A DNA stretch of 64,000 nt from Hyphomicrobium nitrativorans NL23 (GTDB lineage: Bacteria > Pseudomonadota > Alphaproteobacteria > Rhizobiales > Hyphomicrobiaceae). The position numbers were made by a program, and so were the translations under genes. This document shows, in pieces, positions 26,547 through 29,489 of the stretch. The notes under the pieces were generated by a model that searched no databases, had not been told where the DNA came from, and saw only the letters and a list, made by a program, of their open reading frames with translations. The stretch covers positions 3,165,821-3,229,820 of the forward strand of contig NC_022997.1 in assembly GCF_000503895.1 (NCBI RefSeq), read 5' to 3'. The stretch's first letter is position 1. The number at the start of each line of letters is the position of its first letter.

Positions 26547-26963
26547 CGGAACACGCGAGGGATTGACGGTCATGGGGAGTGGCTACCGTGGGTCGATTTA
26601 TCGGGATCGGTCTCAAGAGACACATGAATCTGACGCGAATCTGACGCGAGTTTGGTAAACGGAGCGTGAACCGAATTGGCACGGAGCCCCCCTCGTGGCA
26701 GTTGCACCGATTATGTACAGCAAGCGGCGGGCCGTGCTTGCGGAGATGCGCGAAACGCTTAAATTTTTCTGCGGCTGGCGCGCCTTTCACGGCCTTTGCA
26801 GCGTGGACAGAGTGCTGCGACGTTGGCACACTGTCCCAAACCTACAGTCCAGACGCTGGCGCTTTGCGCCGATGCTGGACACGCAATCCTCGCCTCCGGC
26901 CATAAGCGGGTGCCCTCGCCGGTTGCGACGCGTCAAGCGGACCCTCTTCGTTATCAGGACCCT
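26547..26963. other. Gene-free divergent region between cpdR and the amidohydrolase
   Basis: About 420 bases. It holds a tandem 11-bp direct repeat (GAATCTGACGC twice, 26626-26647) and an AT-rich stretch near 26758-26768 (CTTAAATTTTTC). No frame here looks coding. It should carry both divergent promoters, but I cannot assign them. Confidence 0.4.
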
Positions 26964-27857
26964 ATGACCGCGTATTCCTCCTTCATTACCGATTTCGAGC
27001 CGCCGTTCTCGGTGCTCAAGCCCAAGGTTCAGAGCGCACCGTTCGTCCTCTGCTCGCCGCATTCCGGTCGAATTTACCCGCGCGCGTTCCTCGAACAGTC
27101 ACGGCTCGATCCGATGACGCTCAGGAAGTCCGAGGATTGTTTCGTCGACGAGCTTTTCGAAGGCGCGGCCGCGCTCGGCGTGCCGTTGATTTCGGCACAG
27201 TTTCCGCGCGCCTATCTCGACGTGAACCGGGAACCCTATGAACTCGATCCGGAGCTGTTTGCGGATCCGCTGCCGGATTATGCCAACTCACAATCGGTGC
27301 GGGTGATCGGCGGGCTCGGCACGATCGCGCGCATCGTGGCCGACGGCGAGGAAATCTACGCGTCGCGCCTCAGCGTGGAGCAGGCACTGGCGCGGATCGA
27401 TCACCTCTACTTTCCATTCCACGGCGCACTCGCAGAACTCATCGCCGAAACGAAAGCCCTGTTCGGTTATGCCGTCCTCATCGACTGCCATTCAATGCCG
27501 TCGGCGCAGATGGCCCAAAGCAGTGGGCCGCGCCCGGACTTCGTGATCGGCGACAGGTTTGGCGTTGCGTGCGATCCAAAACTCACGCGCACGCTCAAGG
27601 AGGCGCTCACAGGCAGCGGCTACGACGTGCATCTCAACCGGCCTTACGCCGGCGGCTACATCACCGAACACTACGGACGCCCGTTGGAGGGCGTGCACGC
27701 CGTGCAAATCGAGATTAACCGGGCGCTGTATCTCAACGAAGCGCGTTTCACGCCTGGGCGGGGCTTCCAACGCCTCAAGGCAGACCTGACGCGGATTGCC
27801 GGGACGCTGTTTTCGACGCTTCCCGCCGCCCTCGAACAGCGAGCGGCGGCCGAGTAG
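26964..27857 (+). CDS. N-formylglutamate amidohydrolase family protein
   Basis: A 297-residue member of the FGase/HutG-like family. It has FVLCSPHSGRIYP near the N-terminus, RAYLDVNREPYELD, LIDCHSMPS and the late segment YAGGYITEHYGRP...AVQIEINRALYLNE, the metal- and substrate-site pattern of the family. It hydrolyses N-formylglutamate or a similar amide. No hut genes are adjacent, so a role in histidine breakdown is not supported here. ATG at 26964 was chosen over a long upstream extension that has no family match. Confidence 0.88.
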   Translation: MTAYSSFITDFEPPFSVLKPKVQSAPFVLCSPHSGRIYPRAFLEQSRLDPMTLRKSEDCFVDELFEGAAALGVPLISAQFPRAYLDVNREPYELDPELFADPLPDYANSQSVRVIGGLGTIARIVADGEEIYASRLSVEQALARIDHLYFPFHGALAELIAETKALFGYAVLIDCHSMPSAQMAQSSGPRPDFVIGDRFGVACDPKLTRTLKEALTGSGYDVHLNRPYAGGYITEHYGRPLEGVHAVQIEINRALYLNEARFTPGRGFQRLKADLTRIAGTLFSTLPAALEQRAAAE

Positions 27858-27891
27858 ACGGCGCGGACAAATTCACCTGCGGCCGAGCAAG

Positions 27892-27982
27892 AAAAAAGGG
27901 CCGTCCAGGGTATGGACGGCCCAAGTCTAGGGAGGAAACGCCCAAGGAGGGCAGTGATCACGCGGCAAGCCGCGTTCTCACA
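27892..27982 (-). ncRNA. Candidate small RNA copy 1, cuckoo/CcsR-like
   Basis: About 91 nt on the minus strand. Reading 5' to 3': hairpin CGCGGC-TT-GCCGCG, hairpin GCCC-TCCTT-GGGC, the CU-rich linker TTTCCTCCC, then a perfect 10-bp terminator stem (GGGCCGTCCA with its complement, 5-base loop) and T6. A heat-shock-type promoter lies upstream: CTTG at 28017-28014, 18 bases, then CATAGAT at 27995-27989. The linker is complementary to Shine-Dalgarno sequences, the hallmark of cuckoo-type RNAs. The 5' end is inferred. Confidence 0.7.
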
Positions 27983-28160
27983 TCATCAATCTATGCTGCA
28001 GCGCGGCAATCTACAAGCCCCAGGGGCGACGATCCGTGCTGCGATGCGCCAACCGAGGTTGTCGCGCAACACTGCCCGCCGCGGCAGCATCGAGTGCGGC
28101 CGTTATACCCTATTTTTGCTGATGTTTCCGTGCGCTACAGCGCCGCAACGGGAACCCGAC

Positions 28161-28257
28161 AAAAAAAGGGCCGTCCAGGGTATGGACGGCCCAAGTCTAG
28201 GGAGGAAACGCCCAAGGAGGGCAACGACACGGCGAGCGAAGCTCAACCATGTCGCAC
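28161..28257 (-). ncRNA. Candidate small RNA copy 2, cuckoo/CcsR-like
   Basis: About 97 nt on the minus strand. From the GCCC-TCCTT-GGGC hairpin through TTTCCTCCC and the terminator stem to the T-run (T7 here), about 60 bases are identical to copy 1. The 5' part differs in sequence but keeps a hairpin (GAGC-TTC-GCTC). A -10-like GATATT sits at 28269-28264 with CTTC 19-20 bases upstream. Identity only in the 3' half argues for duplication with selection on the CU-rich module. Confidence 0.68.
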
Positions 28258-28389
28258 TGCAAAAATATCGCGACCTGCGACCCGAAATGGAAGTGCAAAA
28301 AATGCAGAGCTGCCATTACGGCGGCGAGGGGCAGAAGGCGTGAGGTCGGGTGCCGCTGTGCGGCCGGCGCGTGGAACGCGATCCCTGTC

Positions 28390-28483
28390 AAAAAGAGGCC
28401 GTTCGTGCGAGCGAACGGCCCAAGTCCAGGGAGGAAACGCCCGTAATGGGCTGCGGTGGAGAAGCAGTCGCTCCCGAAACCGC
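28390..28483 (-). ncRNA. Candidate small RNA copy 3, diverged cuckoo/CcsR-like
   Basis: About 94 nt on the minus strand with the same order of elements. The hairpin GCCC-ATTAC-GGGC has a changed loop with a kept stem; TTTCCTCCC is conserved. The terminator stem is CGTTCGCT-type (GGCCGTTCG with its complement), covarying fully away from copies 1 and 2, and ends in T5. TTGCCG, 17 bases and CATACA (28518-28490) form a sigma70-like promoter. Compensatory changes in both stems support real RNA structure. Confidence 0.65.
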
Positions 28484-28575
28484 AGAATTTGTATGCCTCT
28501 GTTCGCGACAAGCGGCAACTTACGGCATAGTTACAGGCCGTGTTTATGGTGAATATGGTGCGCGCCCGCAACACA

Positions 28576-28682: not shown

Positions 28683-29489
28683 GTGAGTTCGCGCACCAAC
28701 GCCCGCTTCGAAGATCTCCTCGTCCTCGCCCACGATCTGGCGGACCGTTCGCGGGCCGTGATCCGCCCTTACTTCCGCAAACGGCTGGATGTGGCCGACA
28801 AAGGCGGGCCCAAGGGCTTCGATCCCGTCACCAAGGCGGATCAGGCGGCGGAACGGGCCATTACCCGGCTGATCCGCGAGCGGGCGCCCGACCATGGCGT
28901 CATCGGCGAGGAGTACGGGGCGCAGCGTCCGGACGCGGCCTACCAATGGGTGGTCGATCCCATCGACGGGACGCGCTCGTTCATCACCGGCGTTCCGATG
29001 TGGGGCACGCTGATCGGTCTCCTGCACGAGGGCGAGCCGGTGCTCGGCGTGATGGACCAGCCCTTTACCGGAGAGCGGTTCTGGTCGGGCAAGCGGGGCT
29101 CTCATCTCCAGGAGGCCGGCGGGCGGGCGAGGCGGATCCGCACCCGCGCTTGCCCGCGCGTCAAGGATGCCGTGCTGATGACCACGAGCCCCGACCTGCT
29201 GGAGCCGGGCGCCGAGACAGAGGCGTTCCTCCGCGTGAAAAAGGATGCGCGTATGACCCGCTTCGGCGGCGACTGCTACGCCTATTGCATGTTGGCTGCG
29301 GGTTTCGTCGACGTCGTGGTCGAGGCTGGGCTCAAGAGCTACGATATCGCCGCGCTCATTCCCATCGTGGAGCGCGCGGGCGGGCGCATGACGACGTGGG
29401 ACGGGCGGCCCGCCACCGAAGGCGGCCGGATCGTCGCCGTCGGCGACCCGGCGTTACATGAAAAGGTGATGAAGCTGCTCAATCGATAA
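28683..29489 (+). CDS. hisN: Inositol-monophosphatase family histidinol phosphatase HisN
   Basis: A 268-residue IMPase-family enzyme starting at GTG. It has the metal-site motifs PVTKADQAAE, GEEYG, WVVDPIDGTRSFITG and the late GGDCYAYCMLAAGFVDVVVEAGLKSYDIAAL. The SFITGVPMWGTLIGL form is characteristic of HisN, which removes phosphate from histidinol phosphate in histidine synthesis, a role this family fills in many alphaproteobacteria. Action on inositol phosphate remains possible. Confidence 0.88.
   Translation: MSSRTNARFEDLLVLAHDLADRSRAVIRPYFRKRLDVADKGGPKGFDPVTKADQAAERAITRLIRERAPDHGVIGEEYGAQRPDAAYQWVVDPIDGTRSFITGVPMWGTLIGLLHEGEPVLGVMDQPFTGERFWSGKRGSHLQEAGGRARRIRTRACPRVKDAVLMTTSPDLLEPGAETEAFLRVKKDARMTRFGGDCYAYCMLAAGFVDVVVEAGLKSYDIAALIPIVERAGGRMTTWDGRPATEGGRIVAVGDPALHEKVMKLLNR

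Follow-up and report, generated by a model that had tools for sequence, protein, structure and literature searches.

What kind of RNAs are encoded on the minus strand between 27.89 and 28.48 kb of the 64-kb stretch of Hyphomicrobium nitrativorans NL23 DNA analysed here (the window), and why would a single locus hold three of them? The reason why many species keep several copies of αR8 (alphaR8) small RNAs was left as an open question by a 2025 Caulobacter study (PMC12559287). For this region, an earlier note had described three tandem minus-strand units and placed them in the CcsR/cuckoo type. Three small RNA genes indeed lie side by side at this position, and both the terminator scan and the predicted folds agree with the claimed unit order and with a terminator for each unit. 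The predicted RNAs are 94-99 nt long based on folding, and all three are predicted to be built as a 5' hairpin (SL1), a GCCC-N5-GGGC hairpin (SL2), an open segment GUUUCCUCCCU[A/G]GACUU, a terminator and a T-run.

Based on the Rfam match, the fold and the terminator scan, copy 1 occupies positions 27892..27981, with SL1 at 27981-27954, SL2 at 27952-27940, the 10-mer UUUCCUCCCU at 27938-27929 and the terminator at 27922-27898. The same evidence places copy 2 at 28161..28255 (SL1 28255-28224, SL2 28222-28210, 10-mer 28208-28199, terminator 28192-28168) and copy 3 at 28390..28484 (SL1 28484-28452, SL2 28451-28439, 10-mer 28437-28428, terminator 28421-28396). All are on the minus strand, with a T-run after each terminator. 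From GCCC through the terminator stem, copies 1 and 2 show no differences, in line with the near-identity described before, and copy 3 departs from them at one linker base, in the loop of SL2 and on both sides of the terminator stem. Copy 1 is adjoined by a convergent plus-strand gene for an N-formylglutamate amidohydrolase (FGase; 26961..27857; PF05013, E 1.4e-78), and on the opposite flank lies a plus-strand gene of the inositol-monophosphatase family (suhB-like; 28683..29489; PF00459, E 2.8e-56).

All three copies match the Rfam family RF00519 (suhB/MmgR) over the full length of the model (1-77), with 78.4 bits for copy 2 (28154-28229), 70.5 for copy 1 (27883-27959) and 54.4 for copy 3 (28382-28458), against a gathering cut-off of 41. 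Copy 2 resembles the family consensus most closely. The E-values range from 1.5e-14 to 2e-8 in a scan of the 64 kb, and SL1 has folding z-scores of -3.8 to -4.4 in the three copies; together, these values make a chance origin of the units far too unlikely. In a permissive search, no other Rfam model came near its own cut-off for the array units, the scores for SorY (RF02651) being 26.6-29 bits, below its gathering threshold of 111. According to PMC12559287, linkage to an FGase gene and the 10-mer UUUCCUCCCU are hallmarks of the αR8 family, which has been reported throughout the Alphaproteobacteria except the Rickettsiales. Both are found here: the FGase gene stands beside copy 1, and in all three copies the 10-mer is predicted to be single-stranded, with a hairpin preceding it and a Rho-independent terminator downstream. 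The array units therefore belong to the αR8 family and are not CcsR RNAs. The Rfam check proposed in the earlier note thus returned three copies above cut-off, in RF00519 and not in cuckoo. A fourth, weak RF00519 match in the genome (30.5 bits) was rejected; it derives from a BjrC1505 RNA at L004:1509-1648, which scores 73.4 bits with its own model (RF02356).

The array is conserved as a unit. A survey of 60 related genomes yielded an RF00519 match in 55 and a match above the cut-off in 50. Within the genus, all eight genomes (that of the window and seven others) have three copies above the cut-off at one locus. The copy number was one in 19, two in 30, three in 10 and zero in one of the 60 FGase-anchored loci that have full flanks; these loci were picked by their FGase gene and hence give no measure of FGase linkage itself. 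The segment GGGCGTTTCCTCCCT is unvaried across 39 aligned units, and the claim of an anti-Shine-Dalgarno linker common to the three copies is supported.

The terminator stem covaries strongly: across 143 distinct units, two-sided changes number 105, where shuffles give 12.7 and slid controls 2-17, and standard pairs fill 98.1% of the pair cells. The alignment behind these values was fitted to the structure, and an unfitted alignment agrees with it. Compensation in the terminator stem is thus a general trait of the family, beyond copy 3. The covariation proposed earlier from the change in both arms of copy 3 holds for this stem and does not extend to the GCCC/GGGC hairpin, since SL2 is kept in sequence, hardly covaries and says little on pairing. 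SL1 varies in length and sequence, yet most units fold it stably (mean folding z about -3 in every copy class, about 0 in control segments), and each copy has its own 5' hairpin conserved across the eight genomes. The terminators of copies 1 and 2, identical here, are nearly so in the L036 genome. Gene conversion between these copies was rejected as a rule, near-identical terminators being found only in H. nitrativorans NL23 and L036.

The upstream regions are alike across the eight species for each copy and unlike between the copies, which bears out the claim that the copies have different promoters. In Sinorhizobium meliloti, the PhaR/AniA operator is YGCRNYGCR in AT-rich arms, and the mmgR promoter is bound by PhaR in vitro in EMSA (PMC12542648). 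When this degenerate motif was used for prediction, copy 1 was found to have a putative box CGCGCTGCA at 27997..28005, between a -35-like CTTG and a -10-like CATAGAT, and a second one, CGCATCGCA, further upstream at 28040..28048, kept in 8/8 genus genomes. The 'RpoH-like promoter' formerly assigned to copy 1 is not supported: CTTG...CATAGAT can also be read as an ordinary sigma-70-type site whose spacer holds a PhaR-type operator. At copy 2, a predicted box TGCAGTGCG (28253..28261, in 8/8 genomes) covers the predicted start, just past a -10-like GATATT (28269-28264). Copy 3 has, by eye, a sigma-70-like promoter on the minus strand (28490..28518), with TTGCCG at 28518-28513, a spacer of 17 nt and CATACA at 28495-28490. 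A strict promoter scan gave no promoter at the array, and the predicted transcription starts were taken from conservation.

Perfect boxes are present at copy 1 in 8/8 and at copy 2 in 8/8 genus genomes, and upstream of copy 3 in 0/8. Beyond the genus, a box accompanies 66 of the 68 units nearest to FGase, compared with 12.7 in shuffles, and 47 units have two boxes 19-21 bp apart; the boxed upstream regions are related by descent and do not count as independent. The paired boxes comprise 9 and 12 different 9-mers, in all of which the consensus is kept. At two-copy loci, a box was predicted at 37 of 38 inner (gene-proximal) copies vs 7 of 39 outer ones, which is why the lack of predicted PhaR boxes at the outer copy can be regarded as a family-wide tendency.

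Two further conserved blocks were seen in the alignment. Upstream of copy 2, a 29-bp minus-strand block GTAATGGCAGCTCTGCA-TTTTTGCACTT (28291..28319) is nearly invariant in the eight genomes, with GTAATGGCAGCTCTGCAGTTTTTGCACTT in most relatives. Upstream of copy 3, the block TTGCG...CACCATATTCACC (28548..28571) may be a regulator site; it departs in L039 and reads TTGCG-N4-CGCACCATATTCACC in most of the eight genomes, and its CGCACCA could pass for an NtrC half-site. Elsewhere, the genome encodes PhaR, five phasins and Hfq. On the minus strand of L178, two predicted PhaR boxes (TGCGACGCA and TGCAGTGCG) lie 30 bp apart before the best phasin gene, a two-box layout also reported for phaP1 and phaP2 of S. 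meliloti.

How do other explanations of the locus fare against this evidence? Membership of the CcsR/cuckoo group would mean one common stress-induced precursor, processed into the separate RNAs and linked to a DUF1127 protein. The tandem order and the CU-rich anti-Shine-Dalgarno element speak for such RNAs, as does the faint resemblance to SorY noted above, and the CcsR1-4/cuckoo RNAs of Rhodobacter sphaeroides are likewise clustered and CU-rich. However, the latter arise through RNase E cleavage of a single precursor that also includes a DUF1127 gene and is made from an RpoH promoter (PMC10253847), and none of these features was found at the array. All three copies score well above the RF00519 cut-off, and no CcsR/cuckoo model matches. 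The genome gave no PF06568 match at E 0.001, a result that agrees with the DUF1127 absence noted earlier, although very short proteins can escape such a search. Each unit ends at its own terminator and is preceded by its own conserved upstream region, which argues against a common precursor. The motif differs as well in type and place: in NfeR1/SmelA075-type RNAs it is CCUCCUCCC inside hairpin loops (PMC3927594), and in the predicted folds of the array, which do not show that arrangement, it is UUUCCUCCCU between hairpins. CcsR/cuckoo membership was rejected on these grounds and is considered highly improbable. A plus-strand coding region with incidental repeats has a negligible probability: ORFs of 65-152 aa in the ORF list do cover the array, but the three that were compared with Pfam gave no match, and the compensatory changes track the RNA stems.

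With an αR8 array as the preferred reading, the question of its control remains to be weighed. The extra copies might be a dosage device only, that is, three RNAs with the same job under the same control; the seed is identical in all copies, and the matching terminators of copies 1 and 2, here and in L036, are what recent homogenisation would leave. Against this, upstream region and 5' hairpin are copy-specific and conserved across the eight genomes, and neither copy 3 nor most outer copies elsewhere have PhaR boxes, so that dosage as the sole explanation appears unlikely. It is less probable still that some different regulator uses the YGCRNYGCR boxes in place of PhaR, or that GC-rich promoters generate them as a side effect. 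This idea can draw on a degenerate consensus, on the shared descent of the upstream sequences and on the fact that the boxes are predicted here from the motif, but the boxes occur far above dinucleotide shuffles, with a fixed spacing of 19-21 bp and many 9-mer variants that keep the consensus. Moreover, the motif recurs before a phasin gene of H. nitrativorans NL23, and the EMSA on mmgR is published (PMC12542648). PhaR regulation of copies 1 and 2 thus seems the better reading of the boxes, judged from their sequence.

As for targets, point and compensatory mutations have proved for SisA that the 10-mer pairs immediately before a start codon (PMC12559287), and by analogy the array RNAs would be expected to act on mRNAs with GGGAGGA-like sites. 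In the genome, GGGAGGA precedes ATG 47 times vs 7 for the reversed pattern, an excess accounted for by ordinary Shine-Dalgarno sequences, many of which contain this motif before the start. The best predicted sites lie at two genes. One is a CBS-domain gene (L185:1581-2012, minus strand), where the ribosome-binding site GGGAGGAAACG could form 11 contiguous pairs with the RNA core; seven of these pairs, the GGGAGGA, are kept in 5/6 close orthologues. The other is a catalase-like gene with 10 predicted pairs, at a site that its orthologues do not keep. GGGAGGA also stands before the start of the genes for acetyl-CoA synthetase, PQQ dehydrogenase and 2-hydroxyacid dehydrogenase (C1/acetate metabolism). 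Phasin mRNAs were rejected as direct targets: nothing convincing was found at their start sites, where at best one of them is preceded by UAGGGAG (seven bases), and no obvious pairing site was seen at the main phasin gene.

Off the array, the exact complement of the 10-mer occurs at two sites only in the genome, one being the ribosome-binding site of the catalase-like gene and the other lying antisense to a further apparent small RNA. No CrfA-like sponge was identified among these exact complements, a search that a mismatched sponge would escape. The apparent small RNA (L114:1457-1575, genome C1 near 2553690) presents the same GTTTCCTCCCT as the loop sequence of a GGAAGTC/GACTTCC hairpin; it also contains another GC-rich hairpin, with TTTT, and its promoter is of the EcfG type (GGAAC-N16-CGTT). 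It has no Rfam match and looks like a general-stress anti-Shine-Dalgarno RNA, GsrN-like by description.

Taken together, it is very probable that the locus is a triple αR8 array in which the 10-mer blocks ribosome-binding sites with the help of Hfq, copies 1 and 2 being tied to PHB through PhaR and copy 3 to some other signal. The genes would give three paralogous trans-acting small RNAs, each probably with its own promoter and its own terminator. As for SisA, the open 10-mer would most likely pair, together with Hfq, with purine-rich ribosome-binding sites and so block translation. The PHB-sensing regulator PhaR/AniA probably represses copies 1 and 2, which would be released when PHB granules titrate PhaR, as proposed for mmgR. 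These two RNAs would then restrain storage or carbon genes, and copy 3, without PhaR boxes, probably reports another signal. More tentatively, and with slightly less than even confidence, αR8 duplicates across the Hyphomicrobiaceae may have split their control, with inner copies under PhaR (often through two operators 20 bp apart around the -10) and outer copies that escaped PhaR and feed another signal into the same seed.

Several known systems resemble this arrangement. MmgR of S. meliloti shares the core sequence, the GCCC/GGGC hairpin, the 10-mer, the terminator and a promoter PhaR box, bound in vitro there (PMC12542648) and predicted here; it is, however, a single 77-nt RNA, whereas the Hyphomicrobium array has three RNAs with a 5' hairpin and a copy 3 without PhaR box. 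The Caulobacter crescentus RNAs SisA-D likewise form a set of αR8 siblings in which the 10-mer is shared and the promoters are unrelated, with SisA linked to FGase, but SisB-D are scattered over the genome and the Hyphomicrobium copies are all adjacent; no counterpart of the Caulobacter sponge CrfA was identified among exact 10-mer complements. AbcR1/AbcR2 (alphar15) of S. meliloti offer another case of tandem anti-Shine-Dalgarno RNAs that bind Hfq and occupy a single intergenic region. They belong to another family, at the locus SMc01226-lsrB (PMC7143759), unlike the array units with their suhB/MmgR scores.

The family, its anti-Shine-Dalgarno 10-mer, adjacent αR8 copies in many genera and the unrelated promoters of the Caulobacter siblings are already published. 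What is new is the genus-wide three-copy array, its copy-specific 5' hairpins and upstream regions, and the predicted PhaR boxes on copies 1 and 2 and not on copy 3. No description of this promoter partition was found in the searchable literature; the 2016 family phylogeny (Lagares et al.), which lay outside the search, may contain part of it. The promoter pattern offers a testable answer to the question of copy number for the Hyphomicrobiaceae, with one seed, separate inputs and the gene-proximal copies tied to a carbon-storage sensor, and it extends the predicted PhaR control of an αR8 RNA from Sinorhizobium to a further bacterial family. If control is indeed split in this way, the array would work as a small built-in device that integrates carbon storage with a second input.
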